A DNA stretch of 21,268 nt. Origin: a virus. Shown here in pieces: positions 2,864 through 20,659 of this stretch. The notes beneath the pieces are model-generated. The model was not told the origin of the DNA, made no database searches, and was given only the letters and a program-made list of their open reading frames with translations. The number at the start of each line of letters is the position of its first letter. Position 1 is the first letter of the stretch. Position numbers and translations under genes: made by a program. The stretch spans positions 1 through 21,268 of IMG/VR virus record IMGVR_UViG_3300010885_005516. One strand, given 5' to 3'.

Positions 2864-5014
2864 ATGCCACGTCTAACGACAGACCAGAGACTCGCGAACA
2901 TCCACGAAGAGGCGATGCAGCGCTTCGACTCGATTCAGTCAGTCATGCGCGACGAGAGGCTTCAATGCCTGCAAGACCGGCGTTTCTATTCCGTCGCGGG
3001 CGCACAGTGGGAAGGCCCGCTCGCGGAGCAGTACGAAAACAAACCGAGATTCGAGGTCAACAAAGTGCATCTCGCGGTGATGCGAATCATCAACGAGCAG
3101 CGGAACAATCGAATCACCGTGGATTTCGTCTCGAAGGAGGGGGCCGAGTACGACGCCCTCGCCGATACTTGCGACGATCTCTATCGAGCAGACGAGCAGG
3201 ATTCTGCCGCTCGCGAGGCCTATGATAATGCGTTCGAGGAGGCTGTAGGAGGAGGCTTTGGCGCCTATCGGCTGACGACATGCTGGGAGAATGAGGAGGA
3301 CGACGACGACGAGCGACAGCGAATCAGGTTCGAGCCTATCTACGACGCAGATTCATCCGTCTGGTTCGACCTCGACGCGAAGCGCCAGGATAAAAGCGAC
3401 GCACGCTTTGCCTTCGTTCTCTCATCTCTGACTAGGCGTCGATACATCGAGCAGTATGGCGACGACCCGGCAACGTGGCCTAAGACGGTGCACCAGTACG
3501 AGTTCGACTGGGCAGCTCCCGACGTAGTGTTCGTCGCTGAATACTATCGGGTGGAGGAGAAATCCGAGACGGTGTCAATTTATGAGTCAATCGACGGAGA
3601 GACTGAGTCATATACCAAAGCAGACTTCGACGATGATCCGGAGCTAGAAATTAAGCTCAACGCTATCGGGACTGTTCTCGTGCGCGAGAAGCGAGTCAAG
3701 CGCAGGAAGGTATCGAAGTTCATCCTGTCGGGCGCATCGGTGCTCGAGGACTGCGGCTACATTGCAGGCCGGAACATCCCCATCGTGCCCATCTACGGCA
3801 AACGATGGTTCATCGATAACGTCGAGCGCTGCATGGGCCACGTTCGCCTCGTCAAGGACGCTCAGCGACTGAAGAATATGCAGCTATCGAAGCTCGCGGA
3901 GATCAGCGCATTCTCGAGCGTTGAGAAGCCTATATTCGTGCCCGAACAGGTTGCAGGCCACCAGGTCATGTGGGCCGAAGATAATCTAAAAAATTATCCG
4001 TACATGCTCGTGAATCCAGTCACCGACGCAGCTGGCGCTCAGCAGGTGTCCGGGCCGGTGGCGTACACGAAGTCGGCAGAGATTCCCCCAGCGCTGGCCG
4101 GGATTCTTCAGCTGACCGATGCAGACATTCGGGACATTCTCGGCAATCCAGAGCAGGCCGAGCAGATGCAGCCGAACATGTCGGGCAAAGCGATTGAACT
4201 CATTCAGACGAAAGTCGATCAGCAGTCGTTCATTTACATGTCGAACTTCGCAGTCGGCGTGCAGCGAGGCGGGGAAATCTGGCTCTCGATGGCGTCGGAG
4301 ATCTACTGCGAGCGCGGGAGAAAGATGAAGGGCATAAACGCCCAAGGCGAAATGAAATCAGTCGAACTGTCGCGACCGATGGTTTCAGAGACAGGAACGG
4401 TCGAGACAGAAAACGACCTTTCTGGCGCTCAGTTCGACGTTGTCGCAACCATCGGGCCCTCCAGCATCTCGAAGCGAGCATCGACAGTTCGAGCGCTCAC
4501 CGGGATGATCATGCTCGCAGCAGACGACGAGACAAAAGCCGTTCTCACCTCGATGGCCATGATGAACATGGACGGCGAAGGGATTGCCGATGTGCGCTCG
4601 TACTTCCGCAAAAAACTTCTCAAGGCTGGCGTCCTGAAGCCTGATGAGCAGGAAGCGCAGGAACTCGCGCAGGAAGCCGCGCAGAGACAGCCAGAAGCTC
4701 AGACGCTCTACCTCCAGGCGGCAGCAGAGGAGGCCAGGGCGAAGGCTCTCGAAGCGCAGAGCAGAACAGAGCGCAACATGGCGGATGCAGATCTGATTCG
4801 GGCGAAGACGGTGGAAACGATCGCCAATACGGACTCGACCGAGCAGCAGCAGGCGTTTGAAGTCATCGACAGAGTCTCTAAAGCTAGAGCGCCTGAGGCG
4901 AGCATGATGCCGCCTGCCGTTGTCGTCGCAGACATCCCGCAGCAGACATTCGAGCAGCCGCCAGAGACGGCGCAAATAATCCCGCAACAGCAGACAGGAG
5001 TTGAACCACAATGA
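2864..5014 (+). CDS. P22-type portal protein
   Basis: 716 residues, close to the 725 of P22 gp1. It forms the dodecameric ring at one capsid vertex through which DNA enters and leaves and to which the tail attaches. The N-terminal portion has features typical of P22-family portals, including a Tyr/Trp- and acid-rich stem/wing region and the segment FEVNKVHLAVMRIINEQRNN near residue 65. Residues about 593-680 are rich in Ala, Glu, Gln and Arg and are predicted helical/coiled coil, corresponding to the long C-terminal barrel of P22 portal that reaches into the capsid. The ATG at 2864 is preceded by GGAGGG about 8 bases upstream, inside a 33-base gap after the terminase. The gene ends in an ATGA overlap with the scaffold gene. 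Confidence 0.93.
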   Translation: MPRLTTDQRLANIHEEAMQRFDSIQSVMRDERLQCLQDRRFYSVAGAQWEGPLAEQYENKPRFEVNKVHLAVMRIINEQRNNRITVDFVSKEGAEYDALADTCDDLYRADEQDSAAREAYDNAFEEAVGGGFGAYRLTTCWENEEDDDDERQRIRFEPIYDADSSVWFDLDAKRQDKSDARFAFVLSSLTRRRYIEQYGDDPATWPKTVHQYEFDWAAPDVVFVAEYYRVEEKSETVSIYESIDGETESYTKADFDDDPELEIKLNAIGTVLVREKRVKRRKVSKFILSGASVLEDCGYIAGRNIPIVPIYGKRWFIDNVERCMGHVRLVKDAQRLKNMQLSKLAEISAFSSVEKPIFVPEQVAGHQVMWAEDNLKNYPYMLVNPVTDAAGAQQVSGPVAYTKSAEIPPALAGILQLTDADIRDILGNPEQAEQMQPNMSGKAIELIQTKVDQQSFIYMSNFAVGVQRGGEIWLSMASEIYCERGRKMKGINAQGEMKSVELSRPMVSETGTVETENDLSGAQFDVVATIGPSSISKRASTVRALTGMIMLAADDETKAVLTSMAMMNMDGEGIADVRSYFRKKLLKAGVLKPDEQEAQELAQEAAQRQPEAQTLYLQAAAEEARAKALEAQSRTERNMADADLIRAKTVETIANTDSTEQQQAFEVIDRVSKARAPEASMMPPAVVVADIPQQTFEQPPETAQIIPQQQTGVEPQ

Positions 5015-8447: not shown

Positions 8448-10181
8448 GTGTCGAATGACCTGATTAAGAGTTACAACGATGTCCGTCGCCGCAATCGAAA
8501 TATGCGGGATGGAACGTATGCGGAGGTCAATCAGCCATCGACGCAGTCGATGTTCCGAACGACGTTTGCGAAAGTCATCGCGAGCGGCGCGGATCCAGAT
8601 TTTTTTGCCCAGATCGGCCCTCGCGGAACCGGGATCACATATAGCCAGAGCGGCGGCGATCTCGTCATCAACACGGGCACGACAGCTAACTCTGAATTGA
8701 TTCTCCGGAGTAATGATTTCTTCAGCGGGCCTAATGTAGTTCGCTGGCAGTGTTCACTCTCTCAGCGAATCGCCGATCAGAATTTCGTCATCGAGCTGGT
8801 GGATGTTCTCGGTGATAACTGCGCCGTCACTATCAACAGCGCAGTATCGATTACGGTCAACATTCCAGGCTCACCGTTCACGAGCGCAAACGTCGGCCAG
8901 TCAGTCAGCGTTGGCGGGATTAGTGGTGCAGCAGGCAGACCAGGCAGATATGCGATCGCATCTGTAGCAGGCCCTCTCGTTACGCTCACCGTTGCAGGCT
9001 GGCCAGCATCAGGAACAGCGACCTGTACGGTGTACGGGTGGAATTTTCATCGCACAACGTACAACGGCACTACTGCAACGAATGCCGCCTATGACGCAGG
9101 CCGTCGAGGATATGCAAGCAGCGACACGACGGCGACGATCAATACGACAGCCTCTCCAGGCCACATGGGCATCATGACCTATGAGGACGGGATGACCTCG
9201 CTGCAAGATCAGCTAGTCGCCAGCAGCACTGTTCAGGCGACTACGCAGAGAGCGAGTCGAGTCGTAAACATCCCAGACGAAATCGCAAATCTTTATCTGC
9301 AGATTCGCTGCACGAACGGAACAACGGCCCCGGCCACCACCACTGCGTGGACGATCGGCATGGCTTCTGTTTCGGAATACTCTGCCGTGAACGTCGCGGT
9401 AAACTCTATCAGGCCTCAAGTCGCAAACTCGGCTGCTCCGGTCTCTATTGCCTCTGGAACGCTTCCCACAGTCACGACCGTGGGGACAATTACTGCAGCG
9501 AACCTGAACTTTCCTCAACTAGTCGTGGACGTCACCAGCGGCTCTATTACCGCAACGGTAACGAGCGCGACGGTGACTCCGACGTTCGGGATCAGTTATC
9601 AGGTCAATCTAGTAATTGGTGCTGTATCTGGAACAAGCCCGACGCTAGACGTTACGATTGAGGAATCGGACGACAGTGGCACTAGCTGGTATAAGGTCTA
9701 CGATTTCGGTCGAATCACGACCGGAAGCGCGACGTATAGAAGCCCGATGATTCCGCTTTCGGGGAATCGAGTTCGATACGTTCAGACCGTTGGCGGAACG
9801 ACTCCGAGTTTCACGCGAACAATCAATCGGCTTCAGTCGTCATACCCGGCGCTAGTGCAGCGGCAGTTGATTGATCGCACGGTTTCCCTGACGACCCTTA
9901 ACAGCACGACCCCGACTCTGATTTCTCGAGATGCAGGAAACGCAACGCAGTTGGTCATCAACGTCGGAGCAATCACAACGACCGCGCCTCAGTTGCAGCT
10001 CGAAGGTTCCGAAGACTTTGGCGCGACGTGGTACTCGATTGGCAGTCCCCTCACTGCGGTTGCCAGCAGCACCGTTCAGCAGACCGTGCTAGATATCAAC
10101 GCCGCGCTGCTTCGTGCGAGAGTCTCAACCGCAGGCGTGGGCGTCACCGCTGGCTACGTCATGATTAAAGCGCACGACTAA
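8448..10181 (+). CDS. Large beta-rich virion protein with two Asp-box-like motifs
   Basis: 577 residues, rich in Thr, Ser, Ala and Val, with no signal peptide or membrane segment. Residues 1-35 are polar. The middle contains Gly/Thr-rich beta segments. The C-terminal third appears duplicated: each half ends a strand with an Asp-box-like S-x-D-x-G-x-[ST]-W, SDDSGTSW at 407-414 and SEDFGATW at 521-528, each followed by Tyr and spaced 114 residues. Asp boxes are known from sialidase-like and other glycan-associated beta folds. GTG 8448 is supported by GGGGG at 8436-8440. The gene sits between head genes and gp4, where P22 has none, so a head fibre or surface protein is likely (inference). It does not match an enzyme I can name. 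Confidence 0.6.
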   Translation: MSNDLIKSYNDVRRRNRNMRDGTYAEVNQPSTQSMFRTTFAKVIASGADPDFFAQIGPRGTGITYSQSGGDLVINTGTTANSELILRSNDFFSGPNVVRWQCSLSQRIADQNFVIELVDVLGDNCAVTINSAVSITVNIPGSPFTSANVGQSVSVGGISGAAGRPGRYAIASVAGPLVTLTVAGWPASGTATCTVYGWNFHRTTYNGTTATNAAYDAGRRGYASSDTTATINTTASPGHMGIMTYEDGMTSLQDQLVASSTVQATTQRASRVVNIPDEIANLYLQIRCTNGTTAPATTTAWTIGMASVSEYSAVNVAVNSIRPQVANSAAPVSIASGTLPTVTTVGTITAANLNFPQLVVDVTSGSITATVTSATVTPTFGISYQVNLVIGAVSGTSPTLDVTIEESDDSGTSWYKVYDFGRITTGSATYRSPMIPLSGNRVRYVQTVGGTTPSFTRTINRLQSSYPALVQRQLIDRTVSLTTLNSTTPTLISRDAGNATQLVINVGAITTTAPQLQLEGSEDFGATWYSIGSPLTAVASSTVQQTVLDINAALLRARVSTAGVGVTAGYVMIKAHD

Positions 10182-11410: not shown

Positions 11411-12817
11411 GTGCAGATCCCAATCCTAGCCGGAATCTACACCGACAACGCTCCAGCGCTGCGCACCAGTTACCCGGTAAACCTCCAGCCAGTCCCAAAA
11501 ACGCAAGCGCTTGGAACTGAATTTCTCAAGCCTGCGGATGGCATCATCGCGCTAGGAACTGGCCCCGGAATCAATCGTGGCGCCATCGAGTGGAACGGCG
11601 ATCACTACAGAGTGATGGGATCTCAACTCTGCCACATAGATACCGCAGGAACGCTCACAGACTTAGGCAGCGTGACAATCGGTTCCGGTAATCGAGTCTC
11701 GATGGATTACAGTTTCAGCAGGCTCGCCATTGCATCGAATCAGCGGCTCTATTACTACGACGGCACAACGCTCGACCAGGTCACCGACCCAGATTTAGGG
11801 GTCGTCCTTGATGTCATCTGGATCGACGGATATTTCATGGTCACCGATGGCGACACCATTGTCGTGACTGAGCTTAACGATCCGTTCGCAGTCAATCCGC
11901 TGAAGTACGGCTCGGCTGAAGTGGATCCAGATCCAATCGTCGCGCTCAAGAAATTGCGAAACGAAGCCTATGCAATCAATCGCCACTCGATTGAGGTCTT
12001 CGAGAACGTAGGAGGAGAGGGCTTCCCGTTCAGTCGAATCGACGGAGCATTCATTCCGAGAGGCGCAATCAGCACATCGACCTGCTGCGTTTTCATGGAC
12101 GCCATTGCATTCATCGGCGGGGCTCGAAATGAGAGCCCATCGGTCTGGCTCGGGCTCAACGGCAAAACGCAGAAAATCAGCACGCAAGAGCTAGATTCCG
12201 TGCTGCTTCAGTATTCGGAAAGCGTGTTAGCCGAATCAGTCCTCGAGACGCGAAACGATAAGTCGCACTCGCTGCTCTACGTTCATCTCCCAGACCGCAC
12301 GTTCGTCTACGATGCAAATGCATCTCAGGAGTTAGGCGAACCAGTCTGGCATATTCTCACCTCGACCCTCGATGGCTTCACGCAGTACAGAGCGCGCGAC
12401 TTCGTCTGGTCAAGCAACCGCTGGAACTGCGCGAACACGCAGACCAATCAGTACGGATACCTCACAGATCAGACGGGACAGCACTGGGGATCGAGAGTGC
12501 GCTGGGAGTTCGGCACTACGATCCTCTACAACGAGGGCGCGAAGGCGATCATCCATCAGATGGAACTAGTCGCGCTCACGGGCAGGATTGTAGTTGGGAC
12601 AGAGCCCAGAATCACGACGAGTTACTCAGTAGACGGTCGCGACTGGTCGCAAAGATTAGCGATAACTGCGGGCACCACCGGAGCAACGACGAAGCGGCTT
12701 GTGTGGTTTCAGCAGGGCCTGATTATCAACTGGCGCGTGCAGAGATTCGAGGGCGATTCTGATGCCCATATCTCATTCGCCAGGCTAGAAGCATCCATCG
12801 AAAAGCTGACGAACTGA
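11411..12817 (+). CDS. Packaged DNA stabilisation / tail hub protein, P22 gp10-like
   Basis: 468 residues, nearly identical in length to P22 gp10 (472). The family forms a hexameric hub under gp4 that seals the portal and carries the needle and tailspikes. The start MQIPILAGIYTDNAPALRTS and the 'PVNLQPVPK' segment match the 'YPVNxxxxPK' opening of that family. The rest has regular short beta strands with recurring Gly/Asp turns (LYYYDGTTLDQ, SIEVFENVGGEGFPF) consistent with a beta-propeller-like hub. GTG 11411 is chosen as it places the family N-terminus correctly; GGTGAG lies only 3 bases upstream. The stop TGA shares one base with the next ATG (TGATG). Confidence 0.88.
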   Translation: MQIPILAGIYTDNAPALRTSYPVNLQPVPKTQALGTEFLKPADGIIALGTGPGINRGAIEWNGDHYRVMGSQLCHIDTAGTLTDLGSVTIGSGNRVSMDYSFSRLAIASNQRLYYYDGTTLDQVTDPDLGVVLDVIWIDGYFMVTDGDTIVVTELNDPFAVNPLKYGSAEVDPDPIVALKKLRNEAYAINRHSIEVFENVGGEGFPFSRIDGAFIPRGAISTSTCCVFMDAIAFIGGARNESPSVWLGLNGKTQKISTQELDSVLLQYSESVLAESVLETRNDKSHSLLYVHLPDRTFVYDANASQELGEPVWHILTSTLDGFTQYRARDFVWSSNRWNCANTQTNQYGYLTDQTGQHWGSRVRWEFGTTILYNEGAKAIIHQMELVALTGRIVVGTEPRITTSYSVDGRDWSQRLAITAGTTGATTKRLVWFQQGLIINWRVQRFEGDSDAHISFARLEASIEKLTN

Positions 12818-14130
12818 TGGCCAGACTCAACGTCACTCGCGATCAGCTGTCGGAGTTTCTGACAGATCCGCAGCAGATCCGCCAGTTCGAGAAGCTCTTC
12901 GCGCAGGCTACTAACTCAAGCGTTCACAATAATCTAGAGGGCCTGCAAGGCGGCTCTCCTGCTCAGTATTACCATCTGACGCAGGCCGAGTACGCAGGAA
13001 CAGGCACCGGAGTCTTCGTCCGAACTGACTCGCCTGCATTTTCTGGGACGCTGACTGTTTCGGGCCCAATCGAAGCGACATCAGCGGCGTTCACAGGCCC
13101 TATTAGCGCAACGAGCGGTACGTTCACAGACGCTATCAACGGAACCTATGGGACGTTCACGGCAGACGTAGATATTGGCGGGACTCTGACAGTTACCGGA
13201 ACGTCTCAATTTACCGGCGCTGTTTTGTTTGATTCCGCTACGGGGACGGACATCGTTTGCGACACTGGCTCGCTTGCAGGCTATTCGTTTTCTGGCGATG
13301 ACATGACCTCAACTGGGTCAACCGGCGGGTTCGGTCAAATGAATTTTTACACGCTCAACACCGACATTCCGGCATCGGTGCTGGCCATGAATATCGACAA
13401 TCAGCAGCGACTGAACTTCCCGGCAGTTTCCTTGATTGGCGGGCCTCCGGGTTTGATCAATCCGACGAATTTCTATCAAGAGGGGCGGTCGTTTCTAGAC
13501 AATATCTCCCCGCCATCAACAACGAACACTTACGCCGTTTCCAACGTATTTGCCCCTGCAACACTGTCAGCAGATAACACCGGGGTCGTCTACACCTACG
13601 GCATCACGGTCTACATCGGCGGGCCGTTGCAGGAAGGCACAAATGTCACCATCGACGAAGAACTGGCGGTGGTCGTCAACAGCGGGAACTCTGCTTTCTC
13701 GGGAACGCTGTTCGTTGGCGGTGGATCTGGCAGCGTGGCGACATCAAACGCGCAGGGAGTGTTCTGCTCGCAGGGTGTTCTCGGCTACGGTAAAGATGCG
13801 TTCACCAACTCTCCGGGCGGCGCGGTCACTCAAACCGGGTCGAAATCCAATGGTGTCACGCTGAATAAAGGCTGCGGCGCAATCACGATGAACGCAGCTG
13901 CATTGGCTGCTGGAGCATCAGTCGAGTTCGTGCTGACGAATAGTTTCATCGCAGCGACTGACACCATCGTCACCAACATGGGGCCAGGAGGGACTGCATC
14001 TACCTATCTCGTGCAGTGCCAGGCGGTTGCCGCTGGCAGCTGCCGCTTCAGAGTTACGAACTACAGTGGAACATCGCGCTCTGAGGCGTGCGTCGTTAAT
14101 TTCTCGATCATCAAGGCGGTGAACTCATGA
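12817..14130 (+). CDS. Beta-repeat fibre protein in the tail-needle (gp26) position
   Basis: 437 residues. The N-terminal 45 residues (MARLNVTRDQLSEFLTDPQQ onwards) are helical and probably attach to the hub. A 'HNNLEGLQGG…YYHLT' linker follows, a pattern common in phage fibres. Residues about 76-131 are pseudo-repeats of about 11 residues rich in Thr, Gly and Phe, likely a trimeric beta shaft. The C-terminal ~110 residues, from GYGKDAFTNSPGG to FSIIKA, form a beta domain seen at the tip of other phage fibres. P22 has the 233-residue coiled-coil needle gp26 at this point; nothing like it is seen here. The protein may therefore replace the needle or add a short central fibre (inference). It overlaps both neighbours by 1-4 bases. 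Confidence 0.6.
   Translation: MARLNVTRDQLSEFLTDPQQIRQFEKLFAQATNSSVHNNLEGLQGGSPAQYYHLTQAEYAGTGTGVFVRTDSPAFSGTLTVSGPIEATSAAFTGPISATSGTFTDAINGTYGTFTADVDIGGTLTVTGTSQFTGAVLFDSATGTDIVCDTGSLAGYSFSGDDMTSTGSTGGFGQMNFYTLNTDIPASVLAMNIDNQQRLNFPAVSLIGGPPGLINPTNFYQEGRSFLDNISPPSTTNTYAVSNVFAPATLSADNTGVVYTYGITVYIGGPLQEGTNVTIDEELAVVVNSGNSAFSGTLFVGGGSGSVATSNAQGVFCSQGVLGYGKDAFTNSPGGAVTQTGSKSNGVTLNKGCGAITMNAAALAAGASVEFVLTNSFIAATDTIVTNMGPGGTASTYLVQCQAVAAGSCRFRVTNYSGTSRSEACVVNFSIIKAVNS
13042..13209 (+). repeat. Degenerate ~11-residue fibre-shaft repeats (coded)
   Basis: Residues 76-131 of the needle-slot fibre read as successive units: SGTLTVSGPIEA, TSAAFTGPISA, TSGTFTDAING, TYGTFTADVDI, GGTLTVTGTSQ. The second to fourth are exactly 11 residues each, with an aromatic or Leu at position 5 and Thr at 6. 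This resembles the repetitive beta shafts of trimeric fibres. Confidence 0.75.
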
Positions 14131-14585
14131 TCGTCTCGCCAGACATCACCAGCGCGGAGCTAGAGCGGGTCTACGCTGATGACTACATCAGACGAGCGGT
14201 CAGTCATGACGGCAGGCAGTTCAGCGCAATCACTCACAGCTGCGTTGAATACGTTGCGGCTCGAGTGGGCCATATTTTCTGCGGAGCCTTTCTGCTCGTG
14301 CGATTCTCTAGCATCGAGATCGAAATTCACTCGCTGCTATTCAGATCTGCCCTGCACTGGTCAAGGCATCTAGGCAGAGCGGCGATTGATTTTTGCTTCA
14401 CTCATCACCCGATACAGCGACTCACCGCTTATGTATTCTCCGACCTGCTGACGGCGGCTAATTTCTGCCTCAAGCTAGGATTCAGATACGAAGGCACTCG
14501 ACGAGATGCGTGTCGCCGTCAAGGGGTGCTGACCGGGGTCGATATTTTTGGGATCACGCGGACAGATTGGGAGGCTAAAAATTGA
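14127..14585 (+). CDS. GNAT-fold protein, P22 gp14-like head assembly factor
   Basis: 152 residues. The second half has GNAT acetyltransferase features: RHLGRA at 80-85 fits the acetyl-CoA-binding R/Q-x-x-G-x-A motif, and the later segment AANFCLKLGFRYEGTRRDAC fits the conserved C-terminal part of the family. P22 gp14, encoded at the same place between the needle and gp7, belongs to a GNAT-like family and is needed for infectious particles. Position and fold together suggest an equivalent role. Whether it acetylates anything is unknown. It starts in an ATGA overlap and ends in a TTGA overlap with the next gene, so it is tightly coupled on both sides. Confidence 0.7.
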   Translation: MIVSPDITSAELERVYADDYIRRAVSHDGRQFSAITHSCVEYVAARVGHIFCGAFLLVRFSSIEIEIHSLLFRSALHWSRHLGRAAIDFCFTHHPIQRLTAYVFSDLLTAANFCLKLGFRYEGTRRDACRRQGVLTGVDIFGITRTDWEAKN

Positions 14586-16566: not shown

Positions 16567-18579
16567 ATGGCAACGCTCGACGAACTTCAGCAGGCTCGAA
16601 AAAACGCCTTCATCGCAGGCAGAGATGCCGACGTATCGATTCTCGATTATGCGATTGCGAAACAGCGCACGCTCCCTGCTCAACAGCAGAACATGCCATC
16701 GGCCATCGCGAGCATGGTTTCGCCCGAGGAGATAATCCCCCCCAGAACGCAGCAGCCTTCGCTAGGCGAGCAGGCGCTAGGAGCAGCTGAAACAGCAGCG
16801 ACAGTCATCTCCGGAGCGACAGGCGGCACCGCAGGAATGCTGGGAGGCACGCTGAAGGGTATGGCTAGAGAAATGGTCGCGGGTGAGTTCGGCACTCCGG
16901 CAGCGGCGAATCGAATCGAGCAGACAGCGATGGATGCTTCTGGCGCACTCACCTATCAGCCGCGAACGGAAGCGGGCCAGCAGATGACGGAGGCGGTGAT
17001 GGAGCCAGTGATGGCGGTAGCGCCAGCACTAGGGCCGATTGCAGGCACGCTCGCCCCGGCGGCGGCTATGGTGCTGCCTGCTGCCCCATACGTTCGCGCT
17101 GCGACGACAGCAACGACTCGAGCGGCGAGCGATGTGTCGCGAGTCGCGCTCCAGCATCTCAGGGACTCGCTAGGCATTGTTGCGAGAGACACAGGAGAGA
17201 CAGGCGCACCAGGCGGCGCAGCAGCTCCAGGCGCGGCAGGAGCGCCACAGATGGGAGGGTTCGGCGCTGATAGCGCAGGCGCGGCTAGACTCTCATCAGC
17301 GCAGGAGCGCTTGCAGAGAGCGGCATCGATGCCGGTTCCGCTCTCTCTCACGAAGGGCGCTGCTGAGAGATCTGCGGAACTGCTCGCATTTGAAAAAGAG
17401 CAGATTAAAAACCCGGCGCTCGGTGCCCCTCTCCGAGAACGTGCCGAACTCAATAATCTGCAGATCTTGCAGAACATCGAAGCGCTGATCGACGAGACCG
17501 GAGCGCTAACTAGAGACAGACCAGCGATGGGGCGCTCAGTGACCTCGGCGCTTCTGACTGGCTACGATGAAATGAAAAACCGGGTGCGCTCTGCATATCA
17601 AGCAGCGAACGGTTCGGCAGGCGCACGCGAAATCGTAGACGTTGCGAAGCGAGTGGCGATTCCGGATGACCAGGGCGGGCTTCAGCAGGCCACCGTGTTC
17701 GACTACCTAAACGCCATCCCTGACAACCTGACAAGCACGGGCGTTCCGGATGCGGCAAAGTCATTTGCGCTTAAGCTCGGACTGGCGACCAAGGACGAAT
17801 CGGGCGCGATAGTCCCTGCTCGAGGCGCGACGGTTAAGCAGTGGGAGCAGTGGCGTCAGGAGATTGCGAGAGCTGTCGGAACCGAGCCCGCCGATAAAAT
17901 GTACGTCACCATGATCAAAAATGGCATCGACGACACGCTTGGAGATCTAGGCGGGAAGCCCTATCAGATGGCCAGAGCGTTGCGCAAGCAGATGGCACGC
18001 AAGTTTGAGAACAGGGGCATCGTTGCCAATCTCGTTGAGACAGTGAATGGTCGCAAAGATCCGAAGATTGCCGCGAACGAGGTTTATCAAAAAACGATCG
18101 CGCCATCATCGCCGGAAGAAGTTCGCTTCCTCAAGCGGGTTCTGATGACGACAGGGCCGGAAGGGCAGCAGGCATGGGCGGAACTTCAAGGAGCTGCGTT
18201 GCGCGAGCTATACGAAGTAGCCACGAAGAATGCGGGCCGTGACTCAGATCTCAATCCGATCGTCTCCCCGGCTCAGCTAAATCAGCGTGTGCGGGCTTTA
18301 GACTCTGCAGGACTGCTCGAAGAGTTATTCGGCAAAAAGAGAGCGGAGGTCATTCGTGACCTCAACGAGCTTTCCCTTGAGGTTTCGACTTCTCCTCCGG
18401 GGACGCTGATAAATAATTCCGGAACTTCGATGGCGATCTTCACCGCTCTCGCTGAGGCAGGAACTCTAGGAGTGCTGACAGGCATTCCGGTTCCGGTTCG
18501 TGCGTTGCTCACGGGAGCATCAGGCGCGATCAAAAATAATCGCCTAAAGGCCCGCATCGCGCGGCATTTGAAACCGTGA
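16567..18579 (+). CDS. Ejection protein, P22 gp16-like
   Basis: 670 residues, against 609 in P22 gp16. Residues about 70-190 are Ala/Gly-rich with hydrophobic stretches (GTLAPAAAMVLPAAPYVRAA), and another hydrophobic stretch (FTALAEAGTLGVLTGIPVPV) lies near residues 620-645; these could insert in membranes. Residues about 205-235 are a low-complexity Gly/Ala/Pro linker. The central 260-600 is mixed helical with many charged residues. As the last of three consecutive ejection-protein genes before the tail fibre, it fits gp16, which in P22 helps DNA cross the inner membrane. Clear catalytic motifs such as a lytic transglycosylase are not visible. The start directly abuts the preceding TAA. Confidence 0.68.
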   Translation: MATLDELQQARKNAFIAGRDADVSILDYAIAKQRTLPAQQQNMPSAIASMVSPEEIIPPRTQQPSLGEQALGAAETAATVISGATGGTAGMLGGTLKGMAREMVAGEFGTPAAANRIEQTAMDASGALTYQPRTEAGQQMTEAVMEPVMAVAPALGPIAGTLAPAAAMVLPAAPYVRAATTATTRAASDVSRVALQHLRDSLGIVARDTGETGAPGGAAAPGAAGAPQMGGFGADSAGAARLSSAQERLQRAASMPVPLSLTKGAAERSAELLAFEKEQIKNPALGAPLRERAELNNLQILQNIEALIDETGALTRDRPAMGRSVTSALLTGYDEMKNRVRSAYQAANGSAGAREIVDVAKRVAIPDDQGGLQQATVFDYLNAIPDNLTSTGVPDAAKSFALKLGLATKDESGAIVPARGATVKQWEQWRQEIARAVGTEPADKMYVTMIKNGIDDTLGDLGGKPYQMARALRKQMARKFENRGIVANLVETVNGRKDPKIAANEVYQKTIAPSSPEEVRFLKRVLMTTGPEGQQAWAELQGAALRELYEVATKNAGRDSDLNPIVSPAQLNQRVRALDSAGLLEELFGKKRAEVIRDLNELSLEVSTSPPGTLINNSGTSMAIFTALAEAGTLGVLTGIPVPVRALLTGASGAIKNNRLKARIARHLKP

Positions 18580-18589
18580 GGCGATAGTC

Positions 18590-20659
18590 ATGGCAACGCT
18601 TGTCTACAGTCTCGATGCGAATAATGCCTTGAGTTATCCGGGCTCAGGGTCTAGCTGGTTTGATGTCAGCGGGAACACCTATTCGACATCACCTACGATG
18701 TCGCTTATCAACGGCCCTGCTTTTGTAAATGCTGGAGCCTACAAGTATCTCCAGTTTACTCAGGCGGCATCTCAGTACGGCCAGTTTGCAATGGCAGCGG
18801 TGGCGGCTGGTGCCTATCCTTCAACGACTCTGGCATATCAGATTTATCAACAATCGTTTTCGATCGCGATGTGGGTGCGGTTAGATTCTGCGGCATATGG
18901 AGGGCAAGCGAGCCCACCACTGATACCGCAAATTCTAACGACCATGCAGTTTCGTCAATACATTGGCGGCGACATCATCCAGTGGTGTATCGGCGCTGGA
19001 GCGTTAGGAAATAGTTACGGCACGAATCAATTCACTGCGGGCTGGGCGAATCTTAATCTCGACTCCGCAAGCACGACCGGCGTAGTCGGCGGGCCAGGCT
19101 ATCCAATAACAGCGGGCGGTTGGCATCACGTTGTTGCGACATATGAAAAAACCGGGGCCGATTTCGGAGTAATTAAGTTTTACGTCGATGGGATTTTGCG
19201 CTGTCAGTTAAGCAAAACAACCGGGCTTGGGTTTGGTAGAGCCACATTCGATGGATCAAACGCACTCGTCATTTATCTGAATCGGACTTATTTTTTAGAG
19301 ACTGGTTTTTATGGTGTTTATTATGGCGACACCAGTTTTAATCTGTATCAGATCTATCAGGGCTTATTAAGCGATACAGACATTCTCAATCTATACACCG
19401 CGAGAGCGACATCATTCGGAATACCATCAATGTCTACGATTCAAGTCTTATCTCCCTACCCGATTTTCACTGACCGAGATGGTCAGCCTCTAGAGAACGG
19501 CTACGTCTACATCGGACAGCCGAATCTAGATCCGCAGACTAACCCGGTGAGCGTCTACTTCGATGAGGCTCTGACAGTTCTAGCAGCGCAGCCGATTCGG
19601 ACAATCAACGGCTACGCTTCTCAGGCAGGAACTCCTGCTCGACTGTTCATTGATGCGACGAGCTATTCGACTCGCGTTCTCGACAAAAATGGAACGCTGG
19701 TCGCGAACAGTCAGGCGCAACCGATACCGGCTGCGTTCACTACTGTATCCGCCACGATCTCGATGGACGCTCCACAGGCGACGTTCACCGACATGGATGC
19801 AACGACCAGCACTATCACCACGCTGGGCGCGACGACCGGCAACATCACAACGGTCAACGCTACGACGCTCAACGCCACCACGCTGACAACGACTGGCAAT
19901 ACAACGCTGGGCAACAGCGCGACAGCAGACACGGTTCGCATGAACGCATACGTCGGCGTGGGCCGAAGCGCTTCGACGACGTATCAGCTACTAGTCGCTG
20001 GCGAAGATTCGGGCTCGACTAACTACGCTTTCGGGGCCTTCAACTTTGGATCGACGCAGACGCTGTTCAGAGTGAGAAATGACGGTTACGTCGAACTCCC
20101 CGGCAGGCTTGGAATACAGCGCGGAGCAAATGCGAACTATTCCGCCATCATCGAGGGAACGAACACAGCGGCAACCGACTGGGCTTTAGGATTGTTCGAT
20201 GACGCATCAGCGAATGTCCTGCTCAGAGTCCGAAACGATGGCCAGTTCCAGGTCGGCTATGCGAGCCCGGAATCTCCGTACCTCAACACGACTGGGTCGG
20301 CGGCGAATCTCTTCATTTCGTCGGCCGGAGTTCTGCAGAGATACACATCGTCGATTCGCTATAAGACCGATGTCAAACCGGCGACGTTTGGTTTAGCTGA
20401 GGCGATGATGCTGCGCCCGGTTACGTTTAAGCATGTGAAAGGCGGCGACACGCTGTTCGCTGGCTTCATCGCTGAGGAAGTCGAGCAGGCTGGTCTGTCC
20501 GTGTTCGTCGATTACAACGATCAAGGCCAGCCGGATGCGCTGCATTATTCGAGCATGATGTCGCTCGCGATTTCCGCAATTCAGGAGCAGCAGCAGCAGA
20601 TTGAGACTCTCAAGCAGAAAGTCGCGGCGCTTGAGAGAAAAGCAGCTGCTGACGTATAA
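18590..20659 (+). CDS. Chimeric tail fibre: LamG-like, P22 head-binding, S74 chaperone
   Basis: 689 residues. Residues 1-280 are a LamG/concanavalin-like lectin domain (LDANNALSYPGSGSSWFDVS near the start; WHHVV at 178-182; later FYVDG). Residues 281-378 match the P22 tailspike head-binding domain (PIFTDRDGQPLENGYVYIGQ and VLDKNGTLVANS), beginning with Met281 at ATG 19430. Residues about 384-442 are Thr-rich shaft repeats. Residues 456-551 hold two copies of a unit offset by exactly 52 residues, each ending RVRNDG. Residues 587-689 are a peptidase S74 intramolecular chaperone: S587 and K592 fit the S-x-x-x-x-K self-cleavage pair, and the end is coiled coil. No glycan-cleaving beta-helix like P22's is present. 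GTGAGG precedes ATG 18590. Confidence 0.87.
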   Translation: MATLVYSLDANNALSYPGSGSSWFDVSGNTYSTSPTMSLINGPAFVNAGAYKYLQFTQAASQYGQFAMAAVAAGAYPSTTLAYQIYQQSFSIAMWVRLDSAAYGGQASPPLIPQILTTMQFRQYIGGDIIQWCIGAGALGNSYGTNQFTAGWANLNLDSASTTGVVGGPGYPITAGGWHHVVATYEKTGADFGVIKFYVDGILRCQLSKTTGLGFGRATFDGSNALVIYLNRTYFLETGFYGVYYGDTSFNLYQIYQGLLSDTDILNLYTARATSFGIPSMSTIQVLSPYPIFTDRDGQPLENGYVYIGQPNLDPQTNPVSVYFDEALTVLAAQPIRTINGYASQAGTPARLFIDATSYSTRVLDKNGTLVANSQAQPIPAAFTTVSATISMDAPQATFTDMDATTSTITTLGATTGNITTVNATTLNATTLTTTGNTTLGNSATADTVRMNAYVGVGRSASTTYQLLVAGEDSGSTNYAFGAFNFGSTQTLFRVRNDGYVELPGRLGIQRGANANYSAIIEGTNTAATDWALGLFDDASANVLLRVRNDGQFQVGYASPESPYLNTTGSAANLFISSAGVLQRYTSSIRYKTDVKPATFGLAEAMMLRPVTFKHVKGGDTLFAGFIAEEVEQAGLSVFVDYNDQGQPDALHYSSMMSLAISAIQEQQQQIETLKQKVAALERKAAADV
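19955..20242 (+). repeat. Two-copy 52-residue repeat inside the tail fibre
   Basis: Residues 456-499 and 508-551 align without gaps at an offset of 52. Shared features are the opening G-x-x-R, a mid-segment 'NYAFGAF' / 'DWALGLF', and the closing FRVRNDG / LRVRNDG. They are probably tandem beta units of the fibre shaft arising by duplication, now diverged at the DNA level. Confidence 0.8.

Follow-up and report, generated by a model that had tools for sequence, protein, structure and literature searches.

The fibre gene analysed here raises the question of why a lectin-like domain should stand ahead of a virion anchor, and whether it belongs to that anchor or was added to it. The DNA under study (the window, a 21,268-base IMG/VR virus record) contains a fibre/tailspike-type open reading frame of 689 aa (18590..20659, + strand) that was predicted to encode a LamG-like domain followed, from an in-frame methionine codon at 19430 (Met281), by a P22-type head-binding domain.

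A LamG domain precedes a P22-type anchor in the fibre gene

The window carries a P22-like structural module comprising terminase, portal (PF16510), scaffold, coat, adaptor and gp10-like hub genes. The hub gene (Phage_stabilise; 11411..12817, + strand; PF11134, E 5e-32; PHROG 578) is followed by a fibre gene at the needle position (12817..14130, + strand), by genes at the gp14, gp7, gp20 and gp16 positions, and finally by the fibre open reading frame. In P22-type tails the gp10-like hub is the expected docking site of the tailspike anchor, and here a cognate hub and portal (PF11134 and PF16510, with an Ad3 adaptor) are present in the same window as the head-binding domain.

Several other genes of the window have features of their own. 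A DNA methyltransferase fused to a ParB-like domain adjoins the terminase (102-1367), and the protein at the gp14 position (14127-14585) has matches both among acyl/acetyltransferase PHROGs and to a PHROG for head morphogenesis. Between coat and adaptor lies a 577-aa gene (8448-10181) that found no match in Pfam or PHROGs; because its identity to the closest relative drops to 65-87% (in 150-base steps) against ~94% elsewhere, it may encode a virion protein that is exposed at the surface and interacts with the host. The body of the needle-position fibre shares 67-80% identity with its counterpart in phages whose hub is only 27% identical, and its first 40 residues differ from those phages, which would represent another anchor/body swap.

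Pfam was run on separate pieces of the fibre protein. The LamG/concanavalin A-like lectin domain (residues 1-280; 18590..19429, + strand) matched LamG_3 (PF13385) at residues 86-213 with 35.0 bits (E 1.9e-8, cut-off 27.6), and the piece covering residues 281-383 matched Head_binding (PF09008) at its residues 4-90 with 26.8 bits (E 6.6e-6, cut-off 24); in the full-length protein the latter match scored 22.4 bits, just below the cut-off. The head-binding, or virion anchor, domain (residues 281-378; 19430..19723, + strand) is followed by a short repetitive shaft (residues 379-586; 19724..20347, + strand), in which Pfam and PHROGs recognised no enzymatic or receptor domain, and by an S74 intramolecular chaperone with an SSIRYK motif and a C-terminal tail (residues 587-689; 20348..20656, + strand; Peptidase_S74, PF13884, at 587-634, 24.4 bits, cut-off 22).

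The relationship of residues 281-378 to the P22 domain was also detected by other means. The P22 tailspike structure 1lkt matched residues 281-383 as a single sequence (phmmer, E 4.5e-4), a profile built from 13 relatives matched the tailspikes of P22 (E 1.7e-6) and Sf6 (7sg7, E 2e-5), and residues 281-378 were 45-57% identical to tailspike N-termini in BFVD over ~98 aa. A profile of LamG plus head-binding domain matched ConA/LamG-type structures (4qvs, E 4e-17), a sialidase lectin domain (4c1w, E 1e-8) and pentraxin (E 1.6e-6). The LamG domain is complete, because residues ~4-278 align end to end with stand-alone phage LamG proteins of ~230 aa; its orthologues in contigs L002-L004 score below the Pfam LamG_3 threshold, yet the alignment spans the whole domain. 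The predicted architecture, including the joint at Met281, is thus borne out by the separate domain searches, by 1lkt and by its recurrence in further contigs. LamG-anchor fusions occur in five contigs, and an assembly artefact was therefore rejected.

An AlphaFold model of the protein was of moderate quality (mean pLDDT 71), with the LamG part only moderately confident. Because confidence was low in the linker around residues 282-288, the model suggests that LamG may be flexibly tethered to the anchor. ConA-like proteins in BFVD matched the model with TMt up to 0.73, and uncultured Caudovirales proteins with TM 0.7. Hits of the model in the viral structure library fall into two sets, one of ConA-like proteins and one of P22-type tailspike N-termini, and none of the 50 best matches clearly covers both domains together. 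The top Foldseek hits in the PDB for a model of residues 1-400, clostridial neurotoxin binding domains, were rejected as kin: the likeness reflects the jelly-roll in general, and the structures superpose poorly as a whole (rmsd ~15 A).

An internal head-binding domain is rare among related loci

The head-binding domain starts at residue 281 in the window and at residue 278 in L002, rather than at the protein N-terminus. L002, one of 17 viral head-binding loci, has this fusion too, and its protein is 91% identical to that of the window over the full length. At the remaining 16, the first codon of the open reading frame marks the start of the domain or lies close to it, and several have a stop codon immediately before the head-binding ATG. 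No recognisable domain was found ahead of the head-binding domain at these 16 loci, in three phage records or at three bacterial loci, which supports the rarity of the layout; scans of bacterial genomes found almost no relatives of the anchor. The companion claim, that this domain normally begins at residue 1, held, at or near that position, for the other loci examined and has published exceptions in other phages (PMC6517402). In CBA120, the head domains of TSP2 and TSP4 lie behind N-terminal regions of ~170 and 340 aa, and that of G7C gp66 lies behind 294 aa (PMC6517402); these N-terminal regions are described as serving assembly (PMC6517402, PMC7506556).

The window's protein therefore resembles several known systems and differs from each. 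Its residues 281-378 match the head-binding domain of the P22 and Sf6 tailspikes (PF09008), with a gp10-like hub and adaptor in the same window; however, the domain is internal, and a short S74 fibre follows it instead of a beta-helix endorhamnosidase. CBA120 TSP2 and TSP4 and G7C gp66 likewise have an extra region before the head domain, but theirs is for assembly or docking (T4 gp10-like in CBA120 TSP2), whereas that of the window is a LamG domain absent from near-identical relatives. No T4 gp10-like region was matched in residues 1-280 by Pfam or PHROGs, searches of limited sensitivity here since the published CBA120 match needed HMM-HMM methods. The stand-alone phage LamG/ConA-like lectins (PF13385) share the domain over its whole length at ~25% identity; they are separate ~230-aa genes, often in tandem, or lie C-terminally in longer open reading frames, whereas in the window the domain stands before an anchor. 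Extra regions ahead of a head domain are thus already known, and the unusual point is a lectin-like domain on that side of the anchor.

The same LamG domain stands before a second anchor family

The LamG domain of the window was found in four other contigs. In L002 it precedes the same P22-type anchor. In L003, L004 and L009, where it is 84, 50 and 52% identical to that of the window, respectively, it is followed by a different anchor (phrog_26190 type) that starts with a methionine at the junction; this methionine is kept in all five fusions. A profile of the second anchor matched the 'Tailspike head-binding domain' of cyanophage Pam1 (7eeq, E 3e-11), a Foldseek search of the PDB with its model returned Pam1 7eeq, Pan3, P22 (2vky/1lkt) and Sf6 tailspikes, and the two anchor families align with each other by profile (P 5e-5). 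Because the second anchor matches these tailspikes and aligns to the first family, both recipients of LamG look like virion anchors at the level of sequence and model. The Pam1-type anchor shares the P22-like fold by Foldseek but is a different sequence family from the anchor of the window, and its hub is only ~27% identical.

Among 80 loci with the second anchor, a domain in front was seen only in L003 and L004. A scan with the LamG of L009 found only itself, and a scan of viral contigs with the junction DNA pattern, which is short, gave mostly chance matches.

Near-identical loci with and without LamG

Contigs L003, L004 and L009 have the needle-position fibre gene directly upstream of the LamG fibre, and they share its body with the window from about residue 41. 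In these contigs the order is needle-position gene, ATG-LamG and ATG-anchor. In L088, L089 and L090 the stop of this same gene and a Shine-Dalgarno sequence (TAGGAG) lead straight to the GTG start codon of the second anchor. Hub identity between occupied and empty contigs was 98.3% for L009 and L090, which have the same IMG sample number, and 96.2% for L092 and L089, and the anchors of L088-L090 are nearly the same as those of L003, L004 and L009. LamG was found nowhere in the records of the empty-site contigs, these records being fragments. For the lineage of the window itself, a gp16 search for a sister contig without LamG retrieved only L002, which has LamG.

The empty sites and the second anchor family rule out that LamG is part of the canonical anchor. 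This outcome, an N-terminal region that is simply anchor in many homologues, had been named as the finding that would overturn the original prediction, and it does not occur: another anchor follows the same LamG, and near-identical loci are without it. Sequence comparison thus identifies LamG as an optional module, added in frame ahead of virion anchors. Anchor type tracks hub lineage, hubs that accompany the P22-type head-binding domain being 97-98% alike and 27-28% identical to the second group, and LamG crosses these lineages.

A short direct repeat, TAATGGCAACNCT, flanks the module in L003 and L009 (L003:2227-2239 and 3067-3079; L009:4061-4073 and 4898-4910), with two copies against none expected; it overlaps the stop codon upstream as well as the two start codons. 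At the LamG-anchor junction of the window, ...TCATTCGG-N10-ATG (19410..19432, + strand), the spacing is the same as in L009, where the other anchor follows. Because the repeat bounds the module, joining by short homology at start codons is suggested, though not proven. LamG domains of this group occur only in contigs with the needle-position fibre body (5/5). The same fibre body is also found without LamG in L088-L091 and L094 (fragments), which weakens obligatory co-inheritance of the two.

LamG alleles are exchanged and kept under purifying selection

Between the window and L002, no part of the fibre has diverged more than LamG (82% amino acid identity, dS 0.74), against 96-98% identity and dS 0.12-0.30 in the rest. 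The LamG sequence of L002 is nearer to that of L003 (83.8% of nucleotides) than to that of the window (80.0%), and informative sites within LamG are clustered into 78 runs where 132 were expected (0/10,000 permutations as low). Taken together, these comparisons indicate recombination of LamG alleles between backbones that share only 27% identity in their hubs. A diversity-generating retroelement was not supported as a source of the differences, which lie 60% at third positions and are not adenine-dominated (63/164).

With a dN/dS of 0.12-0.21 (window, L002 and L003) and indels that keep the frame, the fused LamG is, by these sequence measures, a maintained protein domain under purifying selection; dN/dS gave no sign of positive selection on it. 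Tandem arrays of stand-alone ~230-aa LamG genes lie in other viral contigs (L013:218-8014, L030:4-7488 and L024:4563-7688) and are a possible source pool for the module.

Proposed role of the LamG domain and alternative readings

What the DNA shows directly is the fusion and how it recurs on two anchor families, together with the empty sites, recombination and purifying selection. To account for these features, the reading that we consider fairly probable is a trimeric P22-type fibre, attached to the hub through its internal head-binding domain, whose N-terminal LamG is optional, exchanged and probably serves glycan binding. According to this proposal the internal head-binding domain would attach the fibre trimer to the gp10-like hub, because anchor type follows hub lineage, and the accessory LamG module would sit on the N-terminal side of the anchor, exactly at the tailspike anchor start codon. 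LamG would probably supply or assist glycan binding in reversible adsorption, given a short shaft in which neither a receptor-binding nor a depolymerase domain is recognisable; no carbohydrate ligand and no binding residues could be assigned to it. The P22 virion carries six tailspike trimers; with six trimers here as well, LamG would be displayed near the tail base in 18 copies per virion. The geometry first envisaged, with the lectin on the hub side of its anchor, decorating the neck or folding back, is conjectural.

This proposal takes the gene to make a single long protein, and the start sites bear on that. Upstream of 18590, the TGA stop of the gp16-position gene overlaps GAGG (18577..18589, + strand), giving the ATG a strong Shine-Dalgarno sequence (anti-SD duplex -9.1 kcal/mol). 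No Shine-Dalgarno sequence precedes 19430 in either the window or L002 (-3.5 kcal/mol, against a mean of -3.9 for background ATGs), and free-standing anchor starts elsewhere reach -5.0 to -9.2 kcal/mol. The full-length product is therefore expected, and the short form starting at residue 281 that had been envisaged is disfavoured. That an internal start at Met281, or cleavage, nevertheless yields a canonical fibre, with LamG as a minor or separate product, would fit the coincidence of Met281 with the start codon of head-binding relatives and the retention of the junction methionine in every fusion; we regard it as the least probable of the alternatives, given the missing Shine-Dalgarno sequence, the lack of any stop codon after LamG, the frame-keeping indels and the purifying selection on LamG in frame.

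Two further alternatives accept the long protein and assign LamG another task. It could be a docking or branching domain to which a second fibre binds, or could itself attach to the virion, leaving the head-binding domain as only a head-domain fold. Assembly-mediating N-terminal regions before head domains are a published precedent (PMC6517402, PMC7506556), and the needle-position fibre body that accompanies LamG in every case is a possible partner. That body also occurs in contigs without LamG, residues 1-280 gave no T4 gp10-like match, and LamG must be dispensable for attachment where near-identical hubs and anchors lack it, so we judge this reading unlikely. It is slightly less likely still that LamG is a structural or assembly element, such as a spacer, neck decoration or stabiliser, that binds no ligand. 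Purifying selection without positive selection would suit such an element, and the LamG fold assignment alone is no proof of sugar binding; however, presence/absence polymorphism and allele exchange would point to an adhesion module more readily than to a structural part, and LamG has as phage relatives stand-alone ConA-like proteins that are often arrayed in tandem.

Optional glycan binding by LamG on a hub-attached fibre could be part of a wider picture, which we put forward tentatively and rate somewhat below even: a mobile lectin module that is repeatedly placed in frame at anchor starts, forming a crown of up to 18 copies at the tail base and allowing adsorption independent of the fibre tip. 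A lectin crown at the podovirus tail base was not described as an adsorption layout in the literature searched.

Accounts of tailspike modularity usually pair an N-terminal anchor with an exchangeable receptor-binding part at the C-terminus. In this fibre the exchangeable domain has been added on the opposite side of the anchor, and the naturally matched loci with and without LamG on near-identical hubs would make both the tolerance of the anchor for such an addition and the role of LamG in adsorption directly testable.
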